Both the position numbers and the translations under genes were made by a program. A DNA stretch of 50,008 nt, from NCBI GenBank assembly GCA_902805615.1, contig CADCTQ010000002.1:1-50008 (forward strand), given 5' to 3'. Below are positions 2,669-18,263 of the stretch, piece by piece (the stretch's first letter is position 1; the number at the start of each line of letters is the position of its first letter). The notes beneath the pieces were generated by a model. The model was not told where the DNA came from. It did no database searches and saw only the letters and a program-made list of their open reading frames with translations. The stretch comes from an uncultured Cytophagales bacterium. Its GTDB lineage: Bacteria > Bacteroidota > Bacteroidia > Cytophagales > 172606-1.

Positions 2669-3619
2669 ATGAAACAATTCAACGACAAAGCGAAACAGGT
2701 CATATTTGACCATGATGGTTCAGCGGACGACTTTCTATCCCTTATGTTACTGCTCTCCATGGAGCACGTGGACATTGCGGCGGTTACCATAACCCCCGCA
2801 GACTGCTACGCAGAAAACGCGCTGGAGACGACCCTGAAAATCCTGGCCTTGACCAACAAGACGGGAATAGACATAGGGATAAGCAGTTTTCACGGCGTGA
2901 ACGCATTTCCGGCCGAGTGGCGGGCAAGACCCAAAGTTTTAAATGCGCTGCCGCTGATGATCAACGTAGAAACCAAGCCAGGGGCTACCCGGATGGCTGA
3001 AAGCAGGAACATAATTGCCGAAAAGATTGGCTCCGCTGCCCGTCCGGTAACGGTACTGATGACGGGGCCGTGCTCCAGCCTGGTACAAGCCATTGAGGAC
3101 AACCCCGGCATTGTTGACCGGATATCGGAAGTAGTCTGGATGGGGGGAGCAATTGACGTACCGGGCAACGTGCGGACGTATAACCACGACAACAGCGCCG
3201 AATGGAATGTGTTTTGGGACCCTGTTGCATCCCACAAACTGTTGCAATACCAACTTCCCTTGACCCTGGTTCCGCTGGACGTTACAAACCACGTACCGGT
3301 AAACATTGCCTTTCTCAAAAGTCTGGCTTTGCAATCCTCCTTTCTCTACTCCAACCTGGCCGGGCAGTTCTGGGCCACCACCATTGATACCATTCCATCC
3401 TACGAATATACTTATTTCATGTGGGACGTATTGGCAACCAGTTACCTGGCCATTCCGGAGGCATTTACAATTGAAAGGACAGAACTGGAAATAGCCGGTA
3501 AGGGGCCTAATGCCGGGCAGACGTACCGCAAACCCGGGTCGGGGCAATGGGTCGGCGTAGCCAGGCACGTTGACAAGGCCTGTTTCTATAACTACCTGCT
3601 GGGCCGATTCAGGCGCTGA
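2669..3619 (+). CDS. Inosine/uridine-preferring nucleoside hydrolase
   Basis: Hydrolyses the N-glycosidic bond of a nucleoside to release base and (deoxy)ribose. The family's N-terminal calcium-binding aspartate cluster is present as DHDGSADD (D14, D16, D20, D21), where most members have DTDPGxDD. The downstream family motifs VWMGGAI and AEWNVFWDP are intact. Near the C-terminus the metal-binding aspartate is kept in MWDVLA, but the histidine usually just before it is tryptophan, so substrate preference may differ from the classical enzymes. Length of 316 aa is typical and there is no signal peptide, so it is probably cytoplasmic. It is convergent with the Nudix-like regulator at 3664-4329, which could be its controller. 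Confidence 0.88.
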   Translation: MKQFNDKAKQVIFDHDGSADDFLSLMLLLSMEHVDIAAVTITPADCYAENALETTLKILALTNKTGIDIGISSFHGVNAFPAEWRARPKVLNALPLMINVETKPGATRMAESRNIIAEKIGSAARPVTVLMTGPCSSLVQAIEDNPGIVDRISEVVWMGGAIDVPGNVRTYNHDNSAEWNVFWDPVASHKLLQYQLPLTLVPLDVTNHVPVNIAFLKSLALQSSFLYSNLAGQFWATTIDTIPSYEYTYFMWDVLATSYLAIPEAFTIERTELEIAGKGPNAGQTYRKPGSGQWVGVARHVDKACFYNYLLGRFRR

Positions 3620-3663
3620 CCCGTCCAGCCCCCCGGTGCAACCCGGCGGCAGGAAGAGCCGCG

Positions 3664-4329
3664 CTAAACGACTGACAGTTTGCCGGCCGCAATAATATAT
3701 TCCTGTTCATTAAAGGAATAAAGCATGCCCGGCCTCCTGGAAACGTTATCTTCCAGTTCATTCAATGACTGAATGTAGTGCAGGCCTTTAACTTTCCGGC
3801 GAAAGTTTCTGTTGTCGAGCTTTGTGGTAAAGATTTCTTCGTATATCTTCTGCAATTGATTCAGGGTAAACCGGGAGGGCAGCAGGTTGAAAACAATCGG
3901 CCTGACGTTGATACTGTCTTTGATCTTTTGAATGGCATCCTGCACTTTCTGGCCGTGGTCGAACGGCAATGGGGGCATGTCGTTGATGTGCACCCATTGA
4001 TACGTGTGGCTGTTGTCGGTGGCGGGCCTGAAGTCTTCCAGTTTAATCAACGCATAAAAAGCAATGGAGACGATGCGGTTGTCCGGCGAAGGGTCAGTGA
4101 GGCTATATCCCTTCAATTGCTCCAGAAAGATGTTTTTAGCCCCGGTTTCCTGATTTAATATTTCCAGCGCGGTATCAATAAATTCTTCCGTTTTTTTGAC
4201 AAAACCCCCGGGCAGCGCCCACGCTCCCTTTGCAGGTTCATTGTTGCGCTTTATCAGGAGTAGTTTTAATTTATTAGTAACATTATCATAGGCAAACACC
4301 AAACAATCCACCGTGATTTTAAAAACCAT
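3664..4329 (-). CDS. Nudix-domain transcriptional regulator (NrtR-like)
   Basis: The N-terminal ~145 residues form a Nudix fold (ALPGGFVKKTEEF). The C-terminal ~75 residues resemble the winged-helix domain of NrtR-type regulators (FTLNQLQKIYEEI, NFRRKVKG). The Nudix box is degenerate: the REXXEE core reads LEILNQE, losing the arginine and one glutamate. That supports ligand sensing rather than hydrolysis, as is known for NrtR/AraR-type repressors that bind ADP-ribose or sugar derivatives. Length is 221 aa and the start is ATG. It is convergent with the nucleoside hydrolase, whose sugar product would be a natural effector class; this link is inference. A perfect AT-rich palindrome lies about 50 bp upstream. 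Confidence 0.82.
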   Translation of the reverse strand: MVFKITVDCLVFAYDNVTNKLKLLLIKRNNEPAKGAWALPGGFVKKTEEFIDTALEILNQETGAKNIFLEQLKGYSLTDPSPDNRIVSIAFYALIKLEDFRPATDNSHTYQWVHINDMPPLPFDHGQKVQDAIQKIKDSINVRPIVFNLLPSRFTLNQLQKIYEEIFTTKLDNRNFRRKVKGLHYIQSLNELEDNVSRRPGMLYSFNEQEYIIAAGKLSVV

Positions 4330-4379
4330 TTGTACTTAGGTTTAATTTGCATTAATTTAGTTGCCAGATTACATCCTCG

Positions 4380-4395
4380 ATATTATTTATAATAT
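4380..4395. promoter_or_regulatory. Perfect 16-bp AT palindrome, candidate operator
   Basis: ATATTATTTATAATAT has 7-bp arms around TT and lies 50 bp upstream of the Nudix-like regulator on the opposite strand. Its position suits autoregulation. AT-rich palindromes also arise by chance, so confidence is limited. Confidence 0.35.
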
Positions 4396-5329
4396 TGCGG
4401 GTAGCTAATACGAGCATGAAAAAGAAAACATCATTTCATTTAATATCTTCAAGGCCGGCATCAGATACGGGGCAATTCCCGATGGCCGCGTTTGGTACCA
4501 TATGGCCGGCATCCGGAAAAGGTGTCCAGGGCCACAGGGAGGGCAGCGGACGAACCCAGCCATGGGCCCTGCCATAGCGCACGTGTCATAACAGGCGTTA
4601 CGGTGCCTTATCAATGCTCTTTAGATAGTATCTGCGGAACTTTCCCGGAACACCCACCATTCCGCAATCAGTGCTCCTGCGGTAAGCCCCTTTCCAGCAA
4701 ACACGACGGAAAGCAAGTATGTTTTAAGCGCACGCACGGATTCAGTTTGCTACGCAAGCCAGGCAGCCCAGCCCCCGCTCCTCCGGGTACATTCGAAAGA
4801 ATAAGTATAGGAGTTACTCAATTACTTTCCAAGTGGTAACGCTCAAAAAGGCAGACAAAACTGCAATTGTACCGAGCCACGCCAACGGAGAGTGGGCAGC
4901 GGTTGCGGTACGGGTCAGCGCATCAACCCATCATTCGGCGTGGGAGGTGTGCTAATAAAATATCCTGCTGGTTGTAAAAAGGCTTGGCCCCTTATCACAA
5001 AGTCTGTTGATGCCAGGCCGGTTTGGTCATTAAGCTTGCAATTGGTTGGATTTGGGCAGCCTCACCGTTAAACAACCCCAGGAATCGAAAAAATATTAAA
5101 AAAACATTTGCATATGCGTTATAATGACGCTAACTTAGCGTGTATATAACGTATAGTTCAACCGCCGAAGATTTAGCACCGGAACGGGCCGCATTCAATC
5201 TGATTGGGTACCTGCCCCTGGAAAAAGCACTCCCTGAAAACGAGCTCGTCAATTGATACAATTGACCTTAACCACTATTCCTGAATCCTACTGTATGTCC
5301 ACTGCTGAATCAAAAATGCACGCCTGCTT

Positions 5330-5359
5330 GCCATGCCAGGGAACTGCTCCCGGCATGGC
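5330..5359. repeat. Strong stem-loop without T-run
   Basis: Arms GCCATGCC and GGCATGGC enclose an inner GGGA/TCCC stem with an ACTGC loop, giving twelve pairs with one bulged A. No poly-T follows on either side, so this is not a classical terminator. It may be a REP-like element or a structured RNA segment. Confidence 0.5.
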
Positions 5360-6096
5360 TTCTCAACAAGCCCGCCATTACCCGCCGGCCAACTACGCTG
5401 ATTGCCAGGCCAAAATCCCATTCATCATGAAGTGACAATTTGCAAGGGCAATGCTTGCTTCATCCAACTCATCGCAATGACGCAGCGGGGTATTTCCGAA
5501 TGAACCGTGGCAGCGTAAGGCCTGGATGGTGCACCATCGGGCGTGGTATGCCAGGTTGATGTGGTTCCTGCAAGCGCATTCTGAAGGGTTACATCCGTTT
5601 CTCCACTGGGCCGTAGTCAGCGGTTGTAGGCGATAGCCTGCATCAGCAACAGAAGCTTTACTTGGCTGAAAGCAAAGGTGCCCGGGGCTTGCCGGTTCAC
5701 GGGTAGGATTTTAATGAAAATTATTAATCAGCATCAGCTTCAACCTGCGGCCGGTTCTTAAAAAAAACGGCGGGACGCAAGGTGCGTTGTTTTCTCAAAA
5801 CGGGCGCCCCCTGCCACCCCAAGGTTTTAAACCGGGAATTGCTGCTGAGCACGTCGCGTAATACCGTAACAGCCTCACGTTTAAACAGATCACAAGGAAT
5901 ACATCAGCGGGTGGCAGGTGTGGGGGTGTACTGCCCGCATCAAATGGCAAACCTTGCCTGTTGACTGTTCGGGTGCTGCGCGCAGCAACGGAACGGGCTT
6001 CCCGTTTGCCGCCGGGCAGCGGGGGTTGCTCCTGCAATCATTTGAAACAGGAGATTTTATAATCATGTAAGGCGCTTTTCTTGATCTCCGGTAGCT

Positions 6097-6125
6097 TTTG
6101 CCGGGGCAATGGCAATGTATTTACC
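6097..6125 (+). promoter_or_regulatory. Possible operon promoter
   Basis: TTTG at 6097-6100 and TATTTACC at 6118-6125 are 17 bp apart, and the ferredoxin start follows 18 bp later. The -7 element matches TANNTTTG only partly. It is the best candidate visible upstream of the operon. Confidence 0.3.
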
Positions 6126-6142
6126 AAAATTAACCGGATCAC

Positions 6143-6430
6143 ATGCACCAGTTCATATTTAAGCTCGGCAATGACATTGAGGTAAGCATTGAAAATACTT
6201 TTTCAAAACAAAGCCTGCTGGACATTGCTTCGGACCACGACATTGACATACGCAGCCTGTGCGGAGGCGCTGGGGTCTGCAAAAAGTGCCTGGTGCACGT
6301 TGAGGAGGGCTGCCAGTATCTGGAAGAGATAAAAAACCAACAAAAAATAGCTCAAAATGGTCCCCGGTACGCTTGTCAGACAGTGCTGACCAGTGGTGCA
6401 AACGGCAAAACAGTCGTCAGGATCAACTAA
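6143..6430 (+). CDS. [2Fe-2S] ferredoxin
   Basis: A small electron carrier of 95 aa with a complete [2Fe-2S] cysteine set: C40, C46, C49 and C78 (C-x5-C-x2-C-x28-C). The x5 spacing in LCGGAGVCKKC resembles adrenodoxin-like and ASKHA-associated ferredoxin domains rather than plant ferredoxin (x4). It is the first gene of the eleven-gene operon. The operon encodes a diiron oxygenase of the AurF family, which needs external electrons; no ferredoxin reductase is seen nearby, so a genome-encoded one would have to be shared. The role as donor to the oxygenase is inference from co-location. Confidence 0.9.
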   Translation: MHQFIFKLGNDIEVSIENTFSKQSLLDIASDHDIDIRSLCGGAGVCKKCLVHVEEGCQYLEEIKNQQKIAQNGPRYACQTVLTSGANGKTVVRIN

Positions 6431-6459
6431 GTATCGTACGTACCGCTAAATCGAAACTC

Positions 6460-8907
6460 ATGGAGACAATGAACTTTCCTTTCGTCAAGAAAGGGGTGAA
6501 CACAACCTGCATTCTATTTTTTTTATGCATCTGCCTGGCAACGTCACCCTACGTCAATGCGCAGACGCGGGTCATGGGAAAAGTAGAAAGCCTTTACGGA
6601 GAACCGCTGCATAAAGCTGTCGTCCAGGTACTTACGGAAGGCGACCACCGGGCGGTCCAGGGTGCCGTTTCGGATTCCGCCGGGCATTTCGTTGTCAGTA
6701 AACTGACGCACGGGAAGTACTACGTCAAAATTAGTTTTATTGGTTACCAGAGCACTGATTCAAAAATCTTTGAAACCAGCAACGGTGATATCAACTTAGG
6801 AATTTTTAAATTGATTCCGGCCGACTACGTGCTGGATGAAATAGTAGTTGAATCCAAACAGAAAACAATCGAGCAGCAGGAGGGAAAAGTAGTCGTAAAC
6901 TTAAAGAACAGCGCAGCGGCCGGCGGGACTTCCGCCCTGGAAGTGCTCGAACGCTTGCCCAACATCAACGTTGACCGGCAGAACAGCCAGATTTCGCTGG
7001 CCGGTAAGGAAGGTTCTATTGTAATGATCAACGGCAAGCGGACGTACATGCCTAACGCGGCGCTCCTGCAACTTTTGTCGGGAATCAACGCTTCCAAAAT
7101 TGACAAGATAGAACTGATCGCCAACCCTTCGGCTGCTCTCGATGCGGAAGGAAATGCGGGGGTGATCAACATTGTCATGAGCAAGACCGGGGCCGACGGC
7201 GTGAACGGGTCCGTTGAAGCGCAGGCGGGTTACGGGCGCGGAAGCCTCTACAACCTGAACGGCGACTTCTCCTACACCAAAAACAAACTCAGCCTGTATG
7301 CTGCATACTCATTTGCCCGGCAGCACCAGGCCCAGACTTCATTCAACTCCCGGGTGAACACGGACGGCAGCCAGGAATTCTCCATTGCCACGATGAGCGA
7401 AAGGGACCCCATCCAGCGCAACCACAACGTGCGCCTGGGCATGGATTACCAGGTGAATAAAAATGCCTTTGTCAGCGCCTTGTTTACGCTTTACGACAAT
7501 AAATGGTCCATGAATGCGCTCAATCGCACGGACTTCTACCCGTACTATCAGCAGGCCAGCGGGTTGGGCATCGTAAATGACGAGATCAACCACTGGAAAC
7601 ACGCCGGGGGCAGCTTGAGCTTCCAACAGAAATTAAAGAACAACCGGTCTTTTTCAACCAGTGTGGATTACCTGTATTACCATGACAACAATCCTACTTA
7701 TTACAATACCTCTTCCCTGGACCCGGAAGGTACGCTGCTGGGCAGCAGCGTAACCCGGAGTACGAAAGTAACCCCCATTTCCATCCTGGTTCCGCAGTTG
7801 AATTACACGGCCTACTCGAGCAGCAAACTGGAAGTACAGGCCGGCGCCAAAGCTTCGCTGTCGCGTTTCAACAACGATGTGAGCGTAGGCACCTTAACGG
7901 AGGGAACCTGGGCCGACGATCCGCTGCTGACGTCGCAGGCTGAACTCAACGAAACCATTCTTGCCGGGTTTGCGGAGGCAAACTATACTATTTCCGAAGC
8001 AACGGCCGTCAAAGGTGGATTGCGGTACGAACACACCATGTTTGACCTCTCGGCAAACGTTGAGTCCGGCAACGTGAAGCGGAACTACGGGAGTTTGTTT
8101 CCCAGCCTGCTCGTATCCCACCGGCTCAACGCCAACAACCTGATGTCGGCATTTTACGCCAGAAGGATCAACCGGCCAACCTTCAATGACATTGCGCCCT
8201 TTGTACTGTTCATTGACCCGTACACGTTTTTTTCGGGCAACCCGGCCATTCAGCCCTCCTACACCCACACGGTGGGCATCAATTATACGCTGTACAACCT
8301 GCTTTTTTCGGCAAGCTACAGCAATGAACGCAACAGCCTGGCAAAGTTCCAGATCAGCGTAGACCCGTTGACGAATATGCAGACCATCCGGCCGGAGAAC
8401 CTGGGCCGTACCAATACGCTCAACGCCGGCGTCACGGTGCCGATTGAAATCACCGACTGGTGGACGTTCCAAAGCAGCCTGAATGGCTTGTGGAAGGAAG
8501 TCAATACGGGTGCTTTCCAGGACAACCGGCGGCTGAGCATTTACAGCATGCAACTGTCGGGCAGCCAGCAATTTAAATTCTTAAAGCATTACTCGGCCGA
8601 AGTTTCGGGCTTTTACAACACGGCCACCCTGGCCGGCACCTCAAAAATTCAGCCCTTTGGTGGCATTACGGCAGGCTTGCAGCGAAAGATAAACAACTCG
8701 ATCCTGCGGGTGAACGTCAACGATGTGTTTAACTCCATTCAGTCGGTTGCCCTGATCAGCACGATGGGATACGACATCCGGAACGGCTACGATTTCAGCC
8801 AGAGAACCTTCAAAGTGTCCTATTTGTACACCTTCGGCAACCGGCAGGGCAGTGGCAGCAACGCCAAAAACAAGGGAGCCGAAGAAGAAAGAAAGCGTGT
8901 CCAGTAA
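6460..8907 (+). CDS. Outer-membrane beta-barrel protein (TonB-receptor-like)
   Basis: About 815 aa. I use ATG 6460 (alternative 6469) rather than an upstream start that overlaps the ferredoxin gene. A signal peptide ends near PYVNAQ. It is followed by a carboxypeptidase-regulatory-like domain (GKVESLYGEPLHKAVVQV), a TonB-type plug region (ALEVLERLPNINVD, NAGVINIVMSK), and then a long 'outer membrane protein beta-barrel family' barrel rather than a SusC barrel. The last barrel strand ends near VSYLYTFGN and a charged tail of about 20 residues follows. It starts 29 bp after the ferredoxin and precedes the first aminotransferase by 28 bp, so it is co-transcribed. It may carry the pathway's product or an uptake substrate across the outer membrane. 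No SusD partner is present. Confidence 0.86.
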   Translation: METMNFPFVKKGVNTTCILFFLCICLATSPYVNAQTRVMGKVESLYGEPLHKAVVQVLTEGDHRAVQGAVSDSAGHFVVSKLTHGKYYVKISFIGYQSTDSKIFETSNGDINLGIFKLIPADYVLDEIVVESKQKTIEQQEGKVVVNLKNSAAAGGTSALEVLERLPNINVDRQNSQISLAGKEGSIVMINGKRTYMPNAALLQLLSGINASKIDKIELIANPSAALDAEGNAGVINIVMSKTGADGVNGSVEAQAGYGRGSLYNLNGDFSYTKNKLSLYAAYSFARQHQAQTSFNSRVNTDGSQEFSIATMSERDPIQRNHNVRLGMDYQVNKNAFVSALFTLYDNKWSMNALNRTDFYPYYQQASGLGIVNDEINHWKHAGGSLSFQQKLKNNRSFSTSVDYLYYHDNNPTYYNTSSLDPEGTLLGSSVTRSTKVTPISILVPQLNYTAYSSSKLEVQAGAKASLSRFNNDVSVGTLTEGTWADDPLLTSQAELNETILAGFAEANYTISEATAVKGGLRYEHTMFDLSANVESGNVKRNYGSLFPSLLVSHRLNANNLMSAFYARRINRPTFNDIAPFVLFIDPYTFFSGNPAIQPSYTHTVGINYTLYNLLFSASYSNERNSLAKFQISVDPLTNMQTIRPENLGRTNTLNAGVTVPIEITDWWTFQSSLNGLWKEVNTGAFQDNRRLSIYSMQLSGSQQFKFLKHYSAEVSGFYNTATLAGTSKIQPFGGITAGLQRKINNSILRVNVNDVFNSIQSVALISTMGYDIRNGYDFSQRTFKVSYLYTFGNRQGSGSNAKNKGAEEERKRVQ

Positions 8908-8935
8908 ACTCACAGTCCCTCAACCAATCCATTCC

Positions 8936-10066
8936 ATGACCCAGTACCACAACTGCTACGTCAATATTGACGAAACAGACCTTCAACTCCTGCAAACCGC
9001 CGTCAACCAGAAGAGTATTTCGGGGAAAGGACCCTTTGTTGAAACATTTGAAAAATCTTTGGGCGCCTATTTTGGTTCACCCTACGCCCTGTGCTGCAGC
9101 AACGGGACGGCCGCCATCCACATGGTGCTCCTGCACGAGGGGATTGGGGCGGGTGACGAAGTGCTCTTGCCCCCTACGGCTCCCGTCATGTCGGTATTGC
9201 CCATCCTTGCCGTTGGAGCAACCCCCGTTTTTGTGGACACGGAGGCGGGCAACTTCAACGTAGACCTTGCCGACCTCCAGCGGAAAATCTCCCCCAGCAC
9301 CAGAATGCTCATCAACGTTCCCATGTGGGGCTACGCCAACAACGTGGATGAGACGGCGGCCGTGTGCCGGCGGGCCGGCATCAAAGTGCTGGAAGACAAT
9401 TCGCACTGCCACGGTACTACCCTGCATAACCAATACCTGGGTACTTTCGGCGACTACTCCGTCTTCAGCACGCACGAAAGAAAATTGATCACCACCGGGG
9501 AAGGCGGTTTCATCCTCATCAAAGACAAGGCTGATTACGAAGGGCTGCTGCAGGTCAGGTCTTTTGGAGAAGTAGCTACGAGCGAAGAGCGCTTCCGGAA
9601 TGTAAAAGGGGCTTACGGGTACTTTTTCGGTCTCAACTTCAAACTGAGTTCCATCAATGCGGCCCTGGGTATCGCGCAACTCGGCAAGCTGGCCGCCAAA
9701 CTACAGGTAAGAAGGGAAAACGGGCAGTACCTGGCCGCCCGGGTTGCCGAGCGGGACCCGGCGATCCGGGAAATGGCTACCCGCGCCGGCAGCGTGAGCA
9801 ACTACTACTCCATTGTATTGCTGACCGAACCCCAACGCCGGGCACGCATTGAGCGGAAGCTCCAGGAAAACAACATTATTTCCGACCCCATGCGGTACAA
9901 ATACCAGCCGCTGTACCGGATGCCGCTTTTTGAGCAGTACGCATCGCATTGCCCCAATGCGGAGGTTCTGATTCAGTCGGTGTTCACCCTCCCGGTTCAT
10001 GAGGGGCTGACTACCGGGGACCTGGATTTGTTTCTGGAGCTTATTGAGGACGTGCAGTATGCTTAA
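8936..10066 (+). CDS. DegT/DnrJ/EryC1 PLP aminotransferase 1
   Basis: A fold-type I PLP enzyme of the sugar-aminotransferase family, transferring an amino group to a keto-sugar. I chose ATG 8936 because it falls just before the first family strand; the frame upstream overlaps the barrel gene. The catalytic lysine is K183 in ERKLITTGEGGF. The PLP-ring aspartate lies in LEDNSHCHG, and the phosphate-binding segment is SNGTAAIH. Where many relatives have VHLYG, this enzyme has VPMWGYA, which is shared with the second DegT enzyme in the operon; the two are clearly paralogues. Length is 376 aa. The stop overlaps the next start by 8 bp. The exact substrate cannot be read from sequence; a 3-keto-sugar is favoured by the Gfo/Idh and HAD neighbours. 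Confidence 0.9.
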   Translation: MTQYHNCYVNIDETDLQLLQTAVNQKSISGKGPFVETFEKSLGAYFGSPYALCCSNGTAAIHMVLLHEGIGAGDEVLLPPTAPVMSVLPILAVGATPVFVDTEAGNFNVDLADLQRKISPSTRMLINVPMWGYANNVDETAAVCRRAGIKVLEDNSHCHGTTLHNQYLGTFGDYSVFSTHERKLITTGEGGFILIKDKADYEGLLQVRSFGEVATSEERFRNVKGAYGYFFGLNFKLSSINAALGIAQLGKLAAKLQVRRENGQYLAARVAERDPAIREMATRAGSVSNYYSIVLLTEPQRRARIERKLQENNIISDPMRYKYQPLYRMPLFEQYASHCPNAEVLIQSVFTLPVHEGLTTGDLDLFLELIEDVQYA

Positions 10067-10550
10067 ACAATTCACAACCAGCGTAATCGTTTTGAAAAGC
10101 TTGACGGCCGACGCGGAGGTTCTGCTGATTCACCACAAAAAATTCGACCGGTGGATGATTCCCGGCGGGCACATTGAGCCCACGGAAAATCCCAATGAAG
10201 GAGCGGTGCGGGAGGTGCTGGAAGAAACGGGCGTCAACGTTAACCTGATCTCCTTCATGCACAAGCCCCTGGCCGTGCGGGACAGCGAGTGGCTCCTGCC
10301 CCCCGAATACTTCTACCAGCAACTCATCCCTGCTTCAAAAAAGGAAGAACCGCATTACCACCTCGACCTGGTTTACGTGGGCCTCGCCGTGGAACACCAA
10401 CTGGTCGTCAACGCTTCGGAGACCAACGGCGTCAGGTGGGCCTCCCTCTGGGAAATTGACAACCTGAATCTCTTCGACGGAACCCGTACGGTACTTAAAG
10501 ACATACACCACAAAATACTAACCAAAGAGGATATCTGCCATGAGATTTGA
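10059..10550 (+). CDS. Nudix hydrolase, catalytically competent
   Basis: 163 aa from the ATG at 10059, which overlaps the preceding stop by 8 bp (ATGCTTAA), suggesting translational coupling. The Nudix box is canonical: GGHIEP, then REVLEETGV in the correct spacing, so metal binding and diphosphate hydrolysis are expected. This contrasts with the degenerate box of the regulator at 3664-4329. It overlaps the following oxidoreductase by 11 bp. Placement between sugar aminotransferase and sugar dehydrogenase suggests a nucleotide-sugar or other diphosphate substrate made in the pathway, for example release of an amino-sugar phosphate from a UDP-amino-sugar; this is inference. A housekeeping role is possible but the overlaps argue for a pathway function. 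Confidence 0.88.
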   Translation: MLKQFTTSVIVLKSLTADAEVLLIHHKKFDRWMIPGGHIEPTENPNEGAVREVLEETGVNVNLISFMHKPLAVRDSEWLLPPEYFYQQLIPASKKEEPHYHLDLVYVGLAVEHQLVVNASETNGVRWASLWEIDNLNLFDGTRTVLKDIHHKILTKEDICHEI

Positions 10551-11583
10551 CAGACTTAAAGTTGGCATCGTTGGACTGGGCGAGCAGACTATGGATAATT
10601 TGTTGCCGAGCTTATACCTGAGCCAGTACGCTTCGATCGTAGCCATCTGCGACATTGATGAGGCCAAACTATCGGCCACCAGCGCAAAAACCGGGGTACT
10701 CAGCCGGTATACCGACTACCGGCAGATGATTGACTGCGAAAACCTGGATGTAGTGGTCATTTCATCCTTCCCCGAAGTTCATTTCCAGGTGGCCAGGTAT
10801 GCCATGCAGCAAGGGAAGAATGTGTTCGTGGAGAAGCCACCCGTGAGCAACACTGAGCAGTTGAAAGAGTTAATCGGTCTTGCCAGGGTCCTGCCGGTAA
10901 AAACGGGGGTCGGCATGAACTTCAGCTACACGGATTCGCACAAGATTTTGAAGGAAATCCTGTCGGAACATGACTTCGGCGACATCTCTTTTGTGTCGGT
11001 GGAGCACGTAAGCAGCAAGCCCGTTTCCCCCCTGTGGAACCTGGATACTACGGTAGAGTCATTCCTGCTTGCCCAATTGATTCATCCGCTGGACTACATC
11101 CTGGCGCTTGGCGGCAGTTACCATTCCCTCAACGTACACTGCTCCAAATTGCATTCTCCCTTTTTCATCCAACTCATGATCGAATTCGACAACGGAATCA
11201 TTGGTTGCCTGAAGAGCGGCTCGTTCTATCCCCGCTTCAAGCACGAGGTAGAAGTAATCAGCAATACGGGCAATACCGTCAGGATCAGCGATTTGTCGTC
11301 AGTGGAGGTAACCAGGAAAAACCTTCCTACGCCGTTCAACCTGAGGGCCAAGAACTGCGCCACCGTGTACACGCCCAGCCCCCTCAAGTCTGGTTATTCC
11401 AAAGCCGGGTACACCGTCGAATTCAATGCCTTTTTTGAAAGCATTCTGTTTGATACCGAATACTACCACACTTTCGGGGACATGCTCCACGTGTACAAGG
11501 CCCTGGACCAGATCAAACTTCAGATTGATTACAGGTCCAGTGATTGCCGGCTCCCGCTGCCCGTCACGGAAAAAACCTACTAA
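10540..11583 (+). CDS. Gfo/Idh/MocA family NAD(P)-dependent sugar oxidoreductase
   Basis: 347 aa with an N-terminal Rossmann domain (KVGIVGLGEQT, then VAICDIDE), the family signature VEKPPVSN near residue 100, and a C-terminal alpha/beta domain with the catalytic-type histidine/aspartate pair in LIHPLDYIL. The family oxidises or reduces a ring hydroxyl of sugars, cyclitols or nucleotide-sugars with NAD(P). The start overlaps the Nudix gene by 11 bp. Next to a DegT aminotransferase and a Cof-type phosphatase, it occupies the place that NtdC (glucose-6-phosphate 3-dehydrogenase) has in kanosamine synthesis; RifL in ansamycin clusters is an analogous UDP-glucose case. Which hydroxyl it oxidises is not visible from sequence. 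Confidence 0.9.
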   Translation: MRFDRLKVGIVGLGEQTMDNLLPSLYLSQYASIVAICDIDEAKLSATSAKTGVLSRYTDYRQMIDCENLDVVVISSFPEVHFQVARYAMQQGKNVFVEKPPVSNTEQLKELIGLARVLPVKTGVGMNFSYTDSHKILKEILSEHDFGDISFVSVEHVSSKPVSPLWNLDTTVESFLLAQLIHPLDYILALGGSYHSLNVHCSKLHSPFFIQLMIEFDNGIIGCLKSGSFYPRFKHEVEVISNTGNTVRISDLSSVEVTRKNLPTPFNLRAKNCATVYTPSPLKSGYSKAGYTVEFNAFFESILFDTEYYHTFGDMLHVYKALDQIKLQIDYRSSDCRLPLPVTEKTY

Positions 11584-11612
11584 CCGGGGAGCGGACAAAC
11601 CCACCAGAGATC

Positions 11613-12653
11613 ATGATGCATTCAGCCCTGCCAAAGTCGCTCGAACGGTTCTACGCCGATGAGGACAATACGGCAATTGCAGCCTACGAAAGCGCGTTGA
11701 AGAATTACTTCGGAGCAACTTATTGTCTTGCCCTCTCTTCGGGCACGGCTTCTCTGCTTGCGGCGCTGGTCGCCGTGGGAAGCACCCGCGGCGACCAGGT
11801 GGTGGCGCCCCCTACGGCTCCTTTGTGCACGGCGTACCCCATTCTGTCCACGGGCAGCACCCTTGCCTTCGGCGACATCCGGCCCGGCAATTTCGGTTTG
11901 GACGTAGACGGGTTGTTTCGCATCGCCGGCAACAACACCCGGGCCATTGTTGAAGTACCCATGTGGGGATACGCAACCCCGGCCGAAGCATTGAGGGATT
12001 TCGCCGCCGACCGGGCCATTCCGCTGATTTTCGACCTGGCCCATTGTGCAGGCACCACACTGCACGGCCGGCCCTTGTCGGACTACTGCGACATCGCCTG
12101 TTTCAGCACCCAAAAACACAAGATATTCTCCACGGGGGAAGGGGGCTTTCTGCTGACCAACAACGAAGCGTACTACCAAAGGGCGTTGATGTACACGCGG
12201 ATGGGAGAGTTGAACGGAAAGGATTTCGGTTTGAACTTCAAGATCAGCAGCGTGCAGGCGCAAGCCGGTATTGCGGCCCTGGAAACAATAAGCCAGAACC
12301 TCCGGACCAGGCGCAGCAACAGCACCCGCATCACTTCGGCAATCACCAACCCGGCCGTTGCCGAAGTGGAAGTAATCGCGGGCAGCGAACCGAGTTACCA
12401 GAGGCTGCTGCTGCAGTCGAAAAAAGCAGGCCGGGCGCTGGCCGCCCACCTGGTATCGCGGGGCATTCCATCAGACATGCACAAGTATGGAATCAAGCCG
12501 CTGTACGACTACCCGATCCTGCAGCAATTGAAAACCCCCTGCCCCAATGCCGAGCATATGCTGTCAGCAACCACCACCGTACCGGTACACCACGCCTATT
12601 GCGAACAGGACCTGGCGTACATCATTGATTCAATCAACAGTTTCAGGCAATAA
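11613..12653 (+). CDS. DegT/DnrJ/EryC1 PLP aminotransferase 2
   Basis: 346 aa from ATG 11613 (ATG 11616 also possible); an upstream frame start would overlap the oxidoreductase. The catalytic lysine K170 is in QKHKIFSTGEGGF and the PLP aspartate in IFDLAHCAG. It shares VPMWGYA, PPTAP, GLNFKISS and a CPNAE...VPVHH tail with the first DegT enzyme, so the pair arose by duplication. Both keep the lysine, so neither is an obvious dead subunit. This one lacks about 25 N-terminal residues of the first. The pair may act at two positions of one sugar, on two sugars, or as a heterodimer. It lies 8 bp before the glycosyltransferase. Confidence 0.9.
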   Translation: MMHSALPKSLERFYADEDNTAIAAYESALKNYFGATYCLALSSGTASLLAALVAVGSTRGDQVVAPPTAPLCTAYPILSTGSTLAFGDIRPGNFGLDVDGLFRIAGNNTRAIVEVPMWGYATPAEALRDFAADRAIPLIFDLAHCAGTTLHGRPLSDYCDIACFSTQKHKIFSTGEGGFLLTNNEAYYQRALMYTRMGELNGKDFGLNFKISSVQAQAGIAALETISQNLRTRRSNSTRITSAITNPAVAEVEVIAGSEPSYQRLLLQSKKAGRALAAHLVSRGIPSDMHKYGIKPLYDYPILQQLKTPCPNAEHMLSATTTVPVHHAYCEQDLAYIIDSINSFRQ

Positions 12654-12661
12654 CTTCACCA

Positions 12662-13984
12662 ATGGCAACCATGGGTAAACTCGGACTTGTAATTGCCGCC
12701 GCCGACGGCATTATGTCGCTGCAATCAGGCGTGGGAATGGTCGTTAACTTTTTCTTTGAAGCCTTCGGGGAAATAGCCGCGGCCCTGCCGGAGTGGGATA
12801 TTGATCTTTACGCCGCCTGCCCGCGGGTGAATGCCGGCAGCTCCGACTTTTCCCCGAATGCTTTTGAACTGGTGAACCGCCAATGCCGGCAGTACAACGG
12901 CAGGGTGATTCCCCTCGCCAACCTAAGCTCCGGTAACAGTCTCAACGAAGTCTGGAAAGGTACGGCTCAACATGCTTCGGCAGCCGTTTGGGAAAGCTGC
13001 TGCCAGGCCCTGGCCGCCGGAGCCGAAAGCCTCGATGAGGCGTACGATAAAATAATCATCCTCGCGCACGACACCTTGTTCGTGAATCTGTCGGGCTACG
13101 TTGCCGACCCCCGCGTTGAAGTATGCTGGATTCCGCACAGTCTGGGTACGCTCTTCAAAGATCCCAACCAGGGCGAAAGAATCCGTTTTGAACAGGAAAA
13201 AATTACAAATTTACGCCGGCGCGGCGACAAGATCGGCTACATCAGCCATTTTACGAAAGCGCACCTGCTTGAACATTACGGCGTAACCGGCGCCGAACTG
13301 GTCTCTTTCTACTCGGGCATTTACTTTAATTCCCACAAGTACCGGCAAACCGGCCTGATCGGGGATTTTATGGGCCGCCACCGGATTCCAGCCGCTAAAA
13401 AACTGATTTTCAGCTGGGGCAGGTGCTCCGACCAAAAAGGCATTGACATCATCATTGAGGCATACGGCTCAATCCTGCGGGAGAACCCGCACTTCGGCGA
13501 CGAGTACCACCTGGTGCTGCTTTGCCCGACTGAAACGACGTACGAAGAATACCTGGCCGGCATTTTACTTTCGCTGGGTAAACTGCCGGCCGGCTCCTGC
13601 TCGTTCATCGCCGAGTTCCAGGAAAAAGTCCAGTATGAAATCCTTTCGTACGCAAATACCCGGTTCGTCCTCTTGTGCTCCCGGTACGAAAGCTTCGGGC
13701 TCACCTCCATTGAAGCCCTGTACAAAACCAACCCTTCCGCTACGATCATTTACGCGCCCCTGCCCACTTTCCGCGAAGTACTCGCGGGCGGAAGCGCCGT
13801 GGAACTGGCGGAAAACTCGGCCGCTTGCCTGGAAAAAGTACTGCTGGCGCAATCACAAAAATCTTTACCCGGCCTTTCCGCACCCGGGCAACGTGCCGTG
13901 CTCGGCGAGAAATTTTCCATTGAAAAAAACTACTCCTACGGGTTGTCACAACTCGTCCCCAAAGAACTGCTGACCGAAAAATAA
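12662..13984 (+). CDS. GT-B glycosyltransferase (GT4/GT5-like)
   Basis: 440 aa with two Rossmann-like halves. The N-terminal half starts KLGLVIAAADG with SGVGMVVNFF, comparable to the glycine-rich loop of retaining GT-B enzymes. The C-terminal half has SWGRCSDQKGIDIII (the usual GR..xxKG donor-site motif) and the E-x7-E signature at E343 and E351 in YESFGLTSIEAL. This is typical of retaining GT4/GT5 enzymes that use a nucleotide-sugar donor. There are no membrane segments, so it is probably cytosolic. It sits 8 bp after the second aminotransferase and 5 bp before the HAD phosphatase. A likely role is joining an amino sugar to a second sugar or an aglycone; the acceptor is unknown. Confidence 0.86.
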   Translation: MATMGKLGLVIAAADGIMSLQSGVGMVVNFFFEAFGEIAAALPEWDIDLYAACPRVNAGSSDFSPNAFELVNRQCRQYNGRVIPLANLSSGNSLNEVWKGTAQHASAAVWESCCQALAAGAESLDEAYDKIIILAHDTLFVNLSGYVADPRVEVCWIPHSLGTLFKDPNQGERIRFEQEKITNLRRRGDKIGYISHFTKAHLLEHYGVTGAELVSFYSGIYFNSHKYRQTGLIGDFMGRHRIPAAKKLIFSWGRCSDQKGIDIIIEAYGSILRENPHFGDEYHLVLLCPTETTYEEYLAGILLSLGKLPAGSCSFIAEFQEKVQYEILSYANTRFVLLCSRYESFGLTSIEALYKTNPSATIIYAPLPTFREVLAGGSAVELAENSAACLEKVLLAQSQKSLPGLSAPGQRAVLGEKFSIEKNYSYGLSQLVPKELLTEK

Positions 13985-13989
13985 CGCCG

Positions 13990-14817
13990 ATGCTTGAGAA
14001 CATAAAAGTAATATCGCTGGATCTGGATGGTACCCTGTTCCGGTCGGACGGTACGGTTGGGCGGGCAACCATAGACTGCCTGCTCTCCTGCAAAAGGAGG
14101 GGAATGGTGCTGGTGTTCAACACGGCCCGCCCCAAAAAGATGATCCCCGGCGCCTTCTACGAAGCTTTCGGAGAGGAATACTGGGTATTCTCCAACGGAA
14201 CCACCTGCCTGAAAGCGGGAGAAACCGTGTTTCACACCTGTATGGAACGCAGGCACGTCCACCCGATACTCCACTCACTGCACCGCAAACACCCTTCCTA
14301 CTTCTTCTCGGTAGAAGCCCACGGCCAGATATACACCACTTCATCGTGCGACACGACGAACCGGAAATACTACGCGCAAAGCACGGTGATTGATTTTATG
14401 GAGAGCCAGGAAATCAATAAAATCATCATCATTGCCGAAAACCGGGATTTTCCCGTCGGTGAAATCAAACACCTGCTGCACCCGCAATTGAAGCTGCTGG
14501 TCACGGAAAAGGGAAAATACGTGCAGATCATGCCGCAGCAAGTCTCAAAGCTTACTGCCGTGGAAGCAATACTCTCCTCGCTGCACCTCGACCTCTCCAA
14601 CGTACTCTCGTTCGGCGACGATTTGAATGACCTCGAACTCATCCGGGCCTCGGGCATCGGCGTGGCAATGGACAATGCCGATCCCATCCTCAGAAATGCT
14701 GCCGGCTTTGTTACGGCTTCCAATGATGAAAACGGAGTGGCTGTTTTCATTGGTTCTTTCCTCTTGCCGGCAGCAGCCGTAAGCTTATCCTCCTCACCAT
14801 CACCCGACAATTGCTAA
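13990..14817 (+). CDS. Cof-type HAD-family sugar phosphatase
   Basis: 275 aa. HAD motif I is DLDGTLF with nucleophile D11 and acid D13; motif II threonine is in VFNTARP; the lysine of motif III is in the VSKLTAVEAI region; motif IV is LSFGDDLNDLEL. A large C2-type cap between motifs II and III marks the Cof subfamily, which dephosphorylates sugar phosphates. NtdB, the kanosamine-6-phosphate phosphatase of Bacillus, belongs to this subfamily and has similar length. The gene is 5 bp downstream of the glycosyltransferase and 6 bp upstream of the AurF-like oxygenase. The C-terminal serine/alanine-rich extension is outside the domain. Confidence 0.9.
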   Translation: MLENIKVISLDLDGTLFRSDGTVGRATIDCLLSCKRRGMVLVFNTARPKKMIPGAFYEAFGEEYWVFSNGTTCLKAGETVFHTCMERRHVHPILHSLHRKHPSYFFSVEAHGQIYTTSSCDTTNRKYYAQSTVIDFMESQEINKIIIIAENRDFPVGEIKHLLHPQLKLLVTEKGKYVQIMPQQVSKLTAVEAILSSLHLDLSNVLSFGDDLNDLELIRASGIGVAMDNADPILRNAAGFVTASNDENGVAVFIGSFLLPAAAVSLSSSPSPDNC

Positions 14818-14823
14818 AATACG

Positions 14824-15786
14824 ATGACTACGAAACGTGACCACATGAACGAAAACCTGGAAGGCCTCGAAATCAACACGAGTTTGATTGCCAGGCTGAT
14901 GAAGAACTGGCCCAAGAGAGCATCCGTCAGGGGCTGCTACTTCGACGAATTCAAGGGCAGTGACGCATATGACCCCAGCCTGCCCGACTACCCGAAAGAA
15001 CTGGTGCCTTTCTGGGAGCACCCGGGTTTCGACAGCGTAGATGAAGAAATCAAGTTTAAAATACTCACCTGGGGCTGGATCACCTACAACCTGCGGACCG
15101 TGCACGCCGAGGAGAAAATTGTGAATCCCTCATTCGACCTGATCCTTCGGGATACCTTTCCGGGCACCGACACGGTCGAAATGAAAAACGTAGTGTATCA
15201 ATCCCTGATTGACGAACACTTTCACACCATGATGCACTTCAATGCGATGAACGCCACCAAGCGCCTCCGCAAAATGAACGAAAAGATCAATCTGCCCGAC
15301 TCAGTAACCTACCGGTGTTTGCTGGAGCATAAAAGCCTTGAATCAGAGGACTGGAAGCAGCAACTGATGACAATCGCCTGCGGGATTGTTTCCGAAACCA
15401 GCATCAATGCTTTCCTGTCGTTGTTGTCCAAAAGTGCGGGCATTCAACCCAAACACGCTTTGGTGAGCAGACTGCACGACGTGGATGAATTTGCCCATTC
15501 TTCTATTCTGGTTGAAGTAGCAAAATCCGTTTTTACCCACCTGGATCGCCGGGAAAAAGCCTTCTTCATCAAATATTTGCCCAAGGCAATGGATGCCTTC
15601 TGCGCCCAGGACTTTACGTCGTGGCAAACCATACTGGACCATTACCATATTGCGCAGGCTGACCGGATCATCCAGGACTGCCGGCATGAGGCTTCCAAAG
15701 CAAAGATGGTAAATGACTACTCGGGTATAAAACGGCTGGCCGAGGAGTTGAATATTTCGAGAGAGATCGCGTACGAATTCGAATAG
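14824..15786 (+). CDS. AurF-family diiron N-oxygenase
   Basis: 320 aa, all-helical, related to p-aminobenzoate N-oxygenase AurF and CmlI, which oxidise an arylamine to hydroxylamine, nitroso and nitro. All seven iron ligands are present: E96, E131, H134, E191, H218, E222 and H225. As I recall the AurF ligands (E101, E136, H139, E196, H223, E227, H230), each is offset by exactly five residues, so identity and spacing are both conserved. Visible motifs are HAEEK, DEHFH, VSETSINAF and HDVDEFAH. ATG 14824 is used; ATG 14845 is an alternative. It is embedded in a sugar-amination operon with no aromatic-amine genes, so its likely substrate is an amino sugar or a product built from one, which would be unusual for the family. 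Electrons could come from the operon's ferredoxin. Confidence 0.92.
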   Translation: MTTKRDHMNENLEGLEINTSLIARLMKNWPKRASVRGCYFDEFKGSDAYDPSLPDYPKELVPFWEHPGFDSVDEEIKFKILTWGWITYNLRTVHAEEKIVNPSFDLILRDTFPGTDTVEMKNVVYQSLIDEHFHTMMHFNAMNATKRLRKMNEKINLPDSVTYRCLLEHKSLESEDWKQQLMTIACGIVSETSINAFLSLLSKSAGIQPKHALVSRLHDVDEFAHSSILVEVAKSVFTHLDRREKAFFIKYLPKAMDAFCAQDFTSWQTILDHYHIAQADRIIQDCRHEASKAKMVNDYSGIKRLAEELNISREIAYEFE

Positions 15787-15806
15787 ATCAAGACCCTTGC
15801 ACAGTT

Positions 15807-16811
15807 ATGGCAGCAACAAACCCACCCCTTATTTCGGTGCTCATAGCCGCCCGGAATGAAGAATCCAACATGAAAGCTTGTTTAGAGGGGGTTTTACGGC
15901 AAACATTCCCATCCGACCGGTACGAAGTCTGGATTGGGGACGACAACTCCTCGGACGGCACGGCTGCCGTCGTAAAGCAATTTCAAGCGTCCTGCAAAAA
16001 CCTGCACCTGCTGCCGGTTGAAAAGAACCTCAATGGCCTGCTGGGAAAAGCAAATGTGCTGGCGCAACTGGCCCGGGTTGCCAGGGGTGAAATCCTGCTG
16101 ATTACCGATGCCGACGTGCAGGTGCCGCCTGCCTGGATTGATTGTTATGCCCGGCATTTCCGCCGCCGGGTGGACATGATCTCGGGGGTGGTCGCCCTGA
16201 ACGGGCAGTCCGTTTTTGCCAAGTTACAAAACGCCGACTGGCTCACCTACATGGCCGAATGCAACGAAAAGAGCAACAAGGGGCAACCCGTCACGGCGGT
16301 AGGCTGTAACATGGCCATCCGGTCAAGTACTTACAAAGCGGTTGGCGGGTACGAAAAAATTCCTTTTTCCGTTACGGAAGACTACGAGTTGTTCCGCGCA
16401 GTCACTTCCGCCGGATACGCGTTCGGCAGCCTGATGGACCGTGAGGCCCTTGCCTTTACCAACCCGGTAAAAACATTCGGGGATTTATTGAAACAGCGCA
16501 GGCGGTGGCTTACCGGTTCCTTCAGCGCCAACTGGCGCTTTGTGTTGGGATTTAACCTGAACTGCCTGTTTCTGCCGTTCCTGCTTGCCCTTGCGTTCCT
16601 GGTAAACCCGCTGATTCCAGCCACCCTGTTTTTGTACGCGTGGGTAAACCACATCGTCTTCCTGCGGAAGGTATATCACAAACTGGAGTTAAAGAAAAAT
16701 GCAGGTTTGTATTTGTACAAACCTTACTCCATGATTTGCAATGTCATCTTCATGTTTGTCCGGATGATGCCTACTCCCGTGGAGTGGAAAGGGCGGAAAT
16801 ACGGTCAGTGA
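15807..16811 (+). CDS. Membrane GT2 glycosyltransferase
   Basis: 334 aa. A GT-A domain of family 2 starts PLISVLIAARNEE and has GDDNSSDGT, a DxD in TDADVQVP, the acceptor-site ED in VTEDYELF, and QRRRW in LKQRRRWLTG, the set seen in processive-type or membrane-anchored GT2 enzymes. Two or three hydrophobic segments follow (residues ~245-300: FNLNCLFLPFLLALAFL and onward). It starts 20 bp after the oxygenase gene. A membrane GT2 in a small-molecule operon could add a sugar to a lipid-linked or membrane acceptor, which leaves open that the end product is a glycolipid rather than a free antibiotic. Confidence 0.87.
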   Translation: MAATNPPLISVLIAARNEESNMKACLEGVLRQTFPSDRYEVWIGDDNSSDGTAAVVKQFQASCKNLHLLPVEKNLNGLLGKANVLAQLARVARGEILLITDADVQVPPAWIDCYARHFRRRVDMISGVVALNGQSVFAKLQNADWLTYMAECNEKSNKGQPVTAVGCNMAIRSSTYKAVGGYEKIPFSVTEDYELFRAVTSAGYAFGSLMDREALAFTNPVKTFGDLLKQRRRWLTGSFSANWRFVLGFNLNCLFLPFLLALAFLVNPLIPATLFLYAWVNHIVFLRKVYHKLELKKNAGLYLYKPYSMICNVIFMFVRMMPTPVEWKGRKYGQ

Positions 16812-16919
16812 TTTTCAGTTCCCCGTACCCACGGATGCGCGCCCCGACGGCGCTGCCAGCCTGATTGCGGCAGATGGATTGCAGTAAGATACCGGTTTAC
16901 CAAATTCAATGACTTGCCA

Positions 16920-18263
16920 ATGCTGTTTACCGAAGCGCTGAAAACCTGGCGGCTGTCTGCTCCGATCATTCTGGGAGAAATCATTCAAATGTCGGTTCAC
17001 CTGGCCGATGTTGCGATGGTGGGAAGGATTTCTTACAAGCACCTGGCGGCAGCATCACTGGCCGGCAGTATCATCAACATTCCCTTTATCATCGGAGTGG
17101 GCATTACCATTGCTTTTTCCCAGCTGATTTCTGCCGCCAGCGGGAAAAAAGACGACAAAAAAATAGCGCATTATTTATTCAATGGCTTCTGGCTGTGTAC
17201 GGCCGCTGCATTGGGCTTATCGCTGTGCATACACGTGGGAGCGGGAATGCTGCTGCACCTGAACCAGGAAAAGGAGGTAGCCTTGCTGGCCATTCCTTAC
17301 CTGCGGATACTGGGGTGGTCACTCACCCCGCTGCTGATGTTCCTGGCCCTGAAGCATTTTATTGATGGGCTCGGGAAAACCCGGGTTGCCATGGTGCTTT
17401 CCCTGGCATCGCTGCCCATTACTGTTTTCGTAAACTGGCTGCTCATCTACGGACACTGGGGCTTTCCCCGGATGGAGTTGCTGGGAGCAGCGTATGGCAC
17501 GCTGATTTCCCGGCTGGTAGTGCTGGCAGCAATCTGCATTGTGATCACCCGCAGCGATGCACTCCGCCAGTACCTGAAAATGAGAAAAACGCAGTGGACG
17601 TTGAGATGGGAATCGCTAAAAGAGTTTCTGGCGTTGGGAATACCCATAAGCCTGCAACTGGGCATAGAAATAGCAGCTTTTACTGTTTCTGCCATTCTGA
17701 TCGGCAGGTTGGGTCCGGTCCCGCAGGCAGCTCACCAGATCGCTTTTGGCTGCGCGACTTTCACCCTGATGGTATCACTGGGGCTGGCACAAGGCGGCTC
17801 AATCCGGATCAGTAATGCGTGGGGACGGGAGGATTGGGTAAAAGTGAACCAGATTGCAAAAAGTACACTTGCCATTGCCGCCTTATACTGCCTGGCGGCT
17901 GGAATTGTATTCTATGCTTTTCATGCGCAAATTCCCTTACTGTTCAACGACGACCCGGCCGTGGTTGCTGCTGCCTCCTCGCTGATGATCGTCGGGGTGT
18001 TTTTTCAGGCCTCCAATGCACTCCAAGTAGTGGCTTCTTCAATGCTCCGTGGCATCAAAGAGGTTAAACTTCCCACGCTGTTCACGCTGGCCGCCTACTG
18101 GCTGATCGGCATTCCGGCGGGTTACTGTCTGGCTTTTTACGCTGGCCTCGGCATAAAAGGGATCTGGCTCGGATTTACCAGCGGGCTGGTGTTATCAGCT
18201 CTGGCTTTGGCCCGCAGGTTTTTTAGAATAACCGCGAAAGCAAGGGCATGTTTACCTGCATAG
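16920..18263 (+). CDS. MATE-family efflux transporter
   Basis: 447 aa, about twelve transmembrane helices in two homologous halves, of the multidrug and toxic-compound extrusion family (NorM/DinF type). The first helices follow LKTWRLSAPIILGEIIQMSVHLADVAMVGR, cited here only by its start: LSAPIILGEII and HLADVAMVGR. An aspartate in the first helix pair (ADVAMVG) and the conserved GIPISLQLGIE at the start of the second half are present. ATG 16920 is chosen; a TTG two codons upstream and an out-of-frame ATG at 16909 are less likely. It lies 108 bp after the GT2 gene on the same strand, so it could share the transcript or have its own promoter. Probable exporter or self-resistance pump for the operon's product. 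Confidence 0.92.
   Translation: MLFTEALKTWRLSAPIILGEIIQMSVHLADVAMVGRISYKHLAAASLAGSIINIPFIIGVGITIAFSQLISAASGKKDDKKIAHYLFNGFWLCTAAALGLSLCIHVGAGMLLHLNQEKEVALLAIPYLRILGWSLTPLLMFLALKHFIDGLGKTRVAMVLSLASLPITVFVNWLLIYGHWGFPRMELLGAAYGTLISRLVVLAAICIVITRSDALRQYLKMRKTQWTLRWESLKEFLALGIPISLQLGIEIAAFTVSAILIGRLGPVPQAAHQIAFGCATFTLMVSLGLAQGGSIRISNAWGREDWVKVNQIAKSTLAIAALYCLAAGIVFYAFHAQIPLLFNDDPAVVAAASSLMIVGVFFQASNALQVVASSMLRGIKEVKLPTLFTLAAYWLIGIPAGYCLAFYAGLGIKGIWLGFTSGLVLSALALARRFFRITAKARACLPA

Follow-up and report, generated by a model that had tools for sequence, protein, structure and literature searches.

What would a bacterium make with an operon that encodes sugar-type amination enzymes together with an N-oxygenase of the AurF family? 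The locus lies in the window (the whole 50,008-nucleotide stretch of DNA that was analysed) and comprises eleven intact same-strand genes at 6143-18263 (+), all of them open frames (see the table). As the preliminary description had reported, they are tightly packed: nine of the ten junctions are shorter than 30 bp (at most 29 bp), two gene pairs overlap, and the gaps in gene order are 29, 28, -8, -11, 29, 8, 5, 6, 20, and 108 bp, the only long one lying directly before the MATE gene. All eleven family assignments of that description were upheld by Pfam, with every family above its curated cut-off, and it was confirmed that one operon unites sugar-type amination genes with a true N-oxygenase of the AurF family. 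Genes for polyketide, peptide, or arylamine synthesis are missing from its vicinity, also as described, and the searchable papers contain no described cluster with a matching gene set, in line with the claim that none is known.

Genes of the operon, their positions in the window, and the matches that identify them
Feature	Position	Strand	Evidence
Ferredoxin, 2Fe-2S	6143..6430	+	Pfam Fer2 37 bits
Outer-membrane beta-barrel, TonB-receptor type	6460..8907	+	CarboxypepD_reg and OMP_b-brl_3; PF14905 246 bits
DegT/DnrJ aminotransferase AT1	8936..10066	+	Pfam DegT 258 bits
Nudix hydrolase	10059..10550	+	Pfam NUDIX 62 bits; complete Nudix box GX5EX7REVXEEXG
Gfo/Idh/MocA dehydrogenase, distinct subfamily	10540..11583	+	Pfam GFO_IDH_MocA
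Second DegT aminotransferase AT2	11613..12653	+	Pfam DegT 179 bits
GT-B (GT4-like) glycosyltransferase	12662..13984	+	Pfam Glycos_transf_1 26.5 bits, cut-off 26.4
Cof-type HAD-IIB phosphatase	13990..14817	+	Pfam Hydrolase_3; NCBIfam TIGR00099 145 bits, cut-off 137
AurF-family ferritin-like di-iron N-oxygenase	14824..15786	+	PF11583 139.5 bits, cut-off 29.6
GT2 glycosyltransferase	15807..16811	+	Pfam Glycos_transf_2 80 bits; hydrophobic C-terminal segment
MATE-family exporter	16920..18263	+	Pfam MatE 183 bits

The N-oxygenase aligns over its length to the solved AurF (PDB 3chh, E 3.5e-66) and matches PDB 5hyg, which we take to be CmlI (E 5.8e-56); its identity is 37% with AurF and 32% with CmlI. 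All seven di-iron ligands, four Glu and three His, are kept (E96, E131, H134, E191, H218, E222, and H225) and align with AurF E101, E136, H139, E196, H223, E227, and H230. The same seven ligands occur in AurF, CmlI, and DnfA (PMC9478400). Against the NCBIfam model for the 4-aminobenzoate N-oxygenase AurF itself (NF045603) the protein scores 258 bits, below the cut-off of 620, so that, judged by its sequence, it is a member of the AurF family and by this model not the same enzyme as AurF. That it oxidises some amine is very probable. The operon's 2Fe-2S ferredoxin, in which the motif Cys-X5-Cys-X2-Cys...Cys can be read, is a plausible candidate for its electron donor, and a 2Fe-2S domain is present in DnfB, whose gene accompanies that of DnfA (PMC9478400).

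Relatives of the amination genes were found on plasmids. A search of 72,556 plasmids for loci with the dehydrogenase subfamily recovered three independent ones. The Mycetohabitans locus (NZ_CP062179.1) encodes Gfo/Idh, DegT, Nudix, DegT, FAD monooxygenase, HAD, desaturase, nucleoside phosphorylase, and further proteins; the Pantoea ananatis locus (NZ_CP020945.2) encodes Nudix, Gfo/Idh, DegT, a third aminotransferase, DegT, FAD monooxygenase, HAD, desaturase, nucleoside phosphorylase, and more; and the locus of Rhizobium sp. BT04, with Gfo/Idh, DegT, and Nudix, adjoins glycosyltransferases. In each of them the Gfo/Idh, DegT, and Nudix genes adjoin one another and AurF is missing, and a second aminotransferase and a purine-nucleoside/MTA phosphorylase occur in two (Mycetohabitans and Pantoea). 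With the window counted, all four loci found encode a Nudix protein along with the dehydrogenase and an aminotransferase.

Identities between the window proteins and their plasmid-locus counterparts mostly lie at 28-43%. The dehydrogenase is 28-31% identical over 92-97% to the Mycetohabitans, Rhizobium, and Pantoea proteins, and a profile of the four matches PDB 3m2t at 446 bits with no other PDB entry above 93, which marks them as one tight subfamily. PDB 3m2t, a structure annotated as 'probable dehydrogenase', falls into this subfamily too. Homologues of the Nudix protein in the same module of the three loci match with E-values of 1e-20 to 6e-13 and are only about 31% identical to it. AT1 and AT2 are paralogues (35% identical), both with the PLP lysine. 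AT1 is 43% identical to ATa of Mycetohabitans and 40% to ATa of Pantoea, and AT2 is 39-43% identical to ATa and ATb of Mycetohabitans and ATb of Pantoea; in a weakly supported aminotransferase tree the sole supported grouping is AT1 with Pantoea ATa (84/87). The plasmid clusters of Pantoea (locus extract L023:9531-22829) and Mycetohabitans (L024:14992-26315) are likely amino-nucleoside clusters and deserve study in their own right; their nucleoside phosphorylases fit a nucleoside.

The preliminary description had proposed that these genes make a kanosamine-like sugar. NtdABC is composed of a DegT aminotransferase, a Cof-type HAD, and a Gfo/Idh dehydrogenase, and the operon has this trio, including a HAD that matches TIGR00099 at 145 bits and in which the motifs DLDGT and GDDLNDLE can be read. 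In a kanosamine- or neotrehalosadiamine-like route, the Gfo/Idh enzyme would oxidise C3 of glucose-6-phosphate, DegT would aminate it, the Cof-HAD would dephosphorylate the product, GT-B would join sugars, and the AurF-type enzyme would N-oxidise the amine. Yet AT1 and AT2 do not score as NtdA-type enzymes, NtdA being among their poorer structural matches: for AT1, NtdA scores 83 bits against 151 for the best match, and with the aminotransferase profile 142 against 215. The Nudix hydrolase has no place in a glucose-6-phosphate route and is superfluous for NtdABC, and the nucleoside phosphorylase of two relatives is likewise left unexplained. Because NtdA matches poorly and a Nudix gene is linked to the module, we dropped kanosamine as the leading reading and regard it as quite improbable.

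A second possibility is a nucleoside-diphosphate amino-sugar route in the style of WbpB/WbpE or GnnA/GnnB, in which a nucleotide sugar would be 3-oxidised and aminated for a glycolipid or surface glycan, with the membrane GT2 as transferase. The PDB aminotransferases nearest to AT1 and AT2, the perosamine synthetases, are NDP-sugar enzymes, which counts against amination of a nucleotide proper; the dehydrogenase weakly matches the archaeal UDP-GlcNAc 3-dehydrogenase model (NCBIfam NF040723, 61 bits, cut-off 450); and a GT-B protein is encoded along with a GT2 whose C-terminus is hydrophobic. A Nudix hydrolase, however, would destroy the activated sugar donor, two relatives have a nucleoside phosphorylase, the operon is without NDP-sugar-forming, flippase, or polymerase genes, and an AurF gene would be unusual in a glycan locus. 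On balance, this route seems rather doubtful.

By gene content, the left part of the operon bears more resemblance to Pur10/Pur4/Pur7 of puromycin and to AdgB-D of Photorhabdus, enzymes that place an amino group on the ribose of a nucleotide, than to NtdABC. In the Pur10/Pur4/Pur7 route, ATP is oxidised, aminated, and cut to an amino-NMP, and A201A (ata) and cystocin (cst) use homologues of the puromycin genes (PMC11641026). The genes adgB-E are homologous to pur10, pur4, pur7, and pur3, and E. coli expressing the adg genes without the transporter produces 3'-amino-3'-deoxyguanosine (PMC9239236). The adjacency of Gfo/Idh, DegT, and Nudix that typifies the puromycin-type module is found in the operon. 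A monophosphatase of the Pur3 type is absent, the phosphatase being a Cof-type HAD-IIB protein, and the Mycetohabitans and Pantoea loci likewise use HADs. The operon also has no amino-nucleoside N-methyltransferase or acyl-coupling enzyme, which counts against a nucleotide pathway, as do the differing phosphatase type, the low identity of the Nudix protein to those of the other three loci, and the two aminotransferases where the adg module has one. We suggest with moderate confidence that the left module works like the Pur module; as the likeness is one of gene content and the phosphatase differs in type, we do not class it as a member. Amination moves, in our reading, from kanosamine to the nucleotide level, which leaves the earlier interpretation partly supported: the substrate is somewhat more probably a nucleotide than not, and for the ribose of that nucleotide, which would give an amino-nucleoside, the chances come close to even.

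The right part of the operon has a different distribution. A pattern-based scan of one genome each for 84,980 species found one close relative of the N-oxygenase, in Terrimonas pollutisoli (76% identical), where the order HAD (59%), AurF, GT2 (63%), and MATE (56%) is that of the window. The right half thus recurs in order in Terrimonas, and the operon is best seen as a mosaic of two modules. The Terrimonas contig (NZ_JARKNA010000033.1) begins inside the HAD gene, and the first ~40 HAD codons do not match those of the window; the contig start (1-830) has a repeated 'gggtcaacatg' motif and may be the end of an insertion sequence. Beyond the Terrimonas MATE gene lies a mobile element with genes for DUF932, RadC, MobC, and a relaxase, the mobilisation genes being at 4982-11768. 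The expectation that homologous neighbourhoods would keep both oxygenase and aminotransferases held in part: neighbourhoods with the aminotransferases are without AurF, but the close AurF relative keeps the HAD-AurF-GT2-MATE run up to the contig end inside HAD.

That the two modules are found separately in other organisms would be expected if two unrelated gene sets with no common product merely stood side by side. Against such chance neighbourhood, ten same-strand genes with gaps below 30 bp run unbroken across the module boundary, and both modules share low GC and GC3; we consider it very improbable.

Plasmid searches with the HAD and GT2 proteins returned general family members alone. The GT-B protein, the weakest family assignment of the eleven and the only borderline one, is supported by relatives annotated as glycosyltransferases on an Agrobacterium plasmid (32% identity over 90%) and in Nocardia (26% over 83%). 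It had no match in the PDB, and a single-sequence structure model had a mean pLDDT of 36 and was of no use. The Agrobacterium plasmid cluster (L017:7957-18776, L018) that includes this GT-B relative encodes LuxR/LuxI quorum-sensing proteins, methyltransferases, and several glycosyltransferases.

The operon was probably acquired horizontally. Its region has 53% GC compared with 63% in the surroundings, and the GC3 of its genes is 56-72% compared with 84-86% for the neighbouring genes on both sides, which encode a topoisomerase III, a nitrilase, and an FAD oxidase. Counterparts of this nitrilase and of the flanking nucleoside hydrolase (63-76% identical) lie at separate places in genomes of the same family, and those genomes are without AurF, so the contig belongs to this lineage and the operon looks acquired. 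The relaxase and MobC genes next to the Terrimonas copy and the absence from sampled relatives point the same way. The same identities of the flanking genes speak against a contaminant contig, which had been considered in view of the 6% contamination of the assembly. Directly upstream, at 2669-4329, lie genes for a nucleoside hydrolase (IU_nuc_hydro) and for a Nudix regulator of the NrtR type, likewise low in GC; the following 1.8 kb up to the operon (4330-6142, 50% GC) holds no convincing gene and is possibly decayed DNA left from the acquisition. Rfam detected no RNA families in the window; the 1.8 kb stretch has no clear promoter, a search for the Bacteroidota-type promoter pattern was negative, and sigma-70-like promoter matches were near chance level.

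The operon is rare as well. No AurF gene turned up in 389 other genomes of the order or in 193 relatives. Neither AT1 (at E 1e-60) nor the dehydrogenase profile (at 1e-45) found a counterpart when 394 further genomes of the phylum were searched, and GT-B had just weak, partial matches among 394 other genomes of the class. Viral contigs scanned with the aminotransferase and dehydrogenase alignments contained no aminotransferase relatives and merely distant Gfo/Idh matches. We conclude that the operon is a rare mosaic in which enzymes of known kinds are combined in a new way, with a probably new product.

For the AurF-type enzyme, both the sugar amine and an arylamine come into question as substrate. 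We know of no di-iron route for N-oxidation of an aliphatic sugar amine, and a full-text literature search found no di-iron oxidation of a sugar amine. A sugar amine made by the operon is a possible but doubtful substrate, and the product that would follow if the enzyme oxidised the operon's own aliphatic sugar amine, a hydroxylamino, nitroso, or nitro form of a glycosylated amino-nucleoside or amino-sugar, is unlikely. For an arylamine as the amine oxidised, the chances are about even. In the fuller form of this alternative, which we hold to be a credible contender though somewhat below even chances, the enzyme would act on a host arylamine such as p-aminobenzoate, and the glycosyltransferases would link the resulting hydroxylamino- or nitro-arene with the amino-sugar or amino-nucleoside; alternatively, the arene, once oxidised, would serve as nitrogen donor. 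Such an oxidised-nitrogen-donor role has reportedly been proposed for fragin.

Several observations favour an arylamine. Among characterised enzymes AurF, which acts on p-aminobenzoate, is the closest. At AurF position 96, both AurF and its Embleya orthologue have Arg, as do the proteins of the window and of Terrimonas, whereas CmlI has Asn and two other aligned proteins have Lys; in AurF this Arg96 presumably contacts the carboxylate of the substrate p-aminobenzoate. AurF-family genes on Burkholderia glumae and Rhodococcus plasmids adjoin or stand near pabB, and elsewhere in its genome the host carries a gene resembling pabB (321 bits, cut-off 328), so that the host is probably able to make p-aminobenzoate. 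HamC also oxidises p-aminobenzoate (PMC5878181). On the other hand, the operon is without pabA/pabB, acyl ligase, and acyltransferase genes, and the family includes enzymes with other reported substrates, namely glutamine for TsnB7 (PMC6783550) and hydroxylamine for DnfA (PMC9478400). The arylamine alternative concerns the AurF-type enzyme alone and can stand together with the nucleotide-amination module; an arylamine and a sugar or nucleoside amine both fit nucleotide-level amination by the left half. Among the plasmid loci, those of Rhodococcus (L022:9923-20879) look like a chloramphenicol-type cluster, in which AMP-binding, pabB-like, and DAHP-synthase genes adjoin the gene of an N-oxygenase that shares 73% identity with CmlI, and in Burkholderia glumae (L021:9551-24942) pabB, pabA-like, and AurF-family genes directly precede a large NRPS/PKS gene.

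Taken as a whole, the operon is best explained as an acquired mosaic for nucleotide amination, glycosylation, AurF-type N-oxidation, and export, an explanation we hold tentatively, at just under an even chance. The analysis itself shows the gene families, the intact catalytic motifs, and the recurrence of both modules elsewhere; for the substrates, order of steps, and product, we infer the following. The Gfo/Idh enzyme would act on a sugar carried by a nucleotide and oxidise one of its ring hydroxyls to a ketone, one or both DegT enzymes would aminate the ketone, and the Nudix hydrolase would cut the nucleotide, as in the Pur10/Pur4/Pur7 (puromycin) and AdgB-D pathways. The HAD would take off the last phosphate to give an amino-nucleoside or amino-sugar, and GT-B and GT2 would add sugars. 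The AurF-type enzyme, with electrons from the operon's ferredoxin, would turn an amine into a hydroxylamine, nitroso, or nitro group, and the MATE protein, together with the barrel, would export the product. Since a gene set resembling that for amination of a nucleotide's sugar, an AurF-type enzyme, and two sugar transferases are joined here, the product is likely a small molecule with oxidised nitrogen.

If this is true, one operon unites a puromycin-style nucleotide amination module with an AurF-type N-oxygenase and would offer a small and testable route to a new nitrogen-oxidised metabolite of Bacteroidota; from this phylum, to our knowledge, few nucleoside-type antibiotics are known. It would also suggest a function for the orphan structure PDB 3m2t and for the unexplored Pantoea and Mycetohabitans plasmid clusters, and it would put to the test whether the AurF family accepts sugar amines.

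The operon resembles several known systems in part. NtdABC shares its DegT, Cof-HAD, and Gfo/Idh trio but is without the Nudix, AurF, and ferredoxin genes, and NtdA is a poor match to AT1 and AT2. The AurF and CmlI arylamine N-oxygenases agree with the window enzyme in family, seven ligands, and length, whereas the operon is without arylamine-synthesis genes. The Mycetohabitans and Pantoea clusters share Gfo/Idh, two DegT, and Nudix genes in one run and have FAD monooxygenase, desaturase, and nucleoside phosphorylase where the window has AurF, GT-B, GT2, and MATE. In the core of the puromycin, cystocin, and A201A clusters, dehydrogenase, aminotransferase, and Nudix are encoded together with a phosphatase, as in the window; the window differs in its two aminotransferases, in having HAD-IIB instead of the Pur3 type, in being without methyl- or aminoacyl-transfer genes, and in its extra AurF, ferredoxin, GT-B, and GT2. 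Photorhabdus adgA-E, with its homologues of pur10, pur4, pur7, and pur3, is likewise a small operon of low GC that belongs to a Gram-negative bacterium and encodes an exporter (PMC9239236), yet its five genes include one aminotransferase where the window operon has two, are without an N-oxygenase or glycosyltransferases, and encode an MFS exporter in place of MATE.
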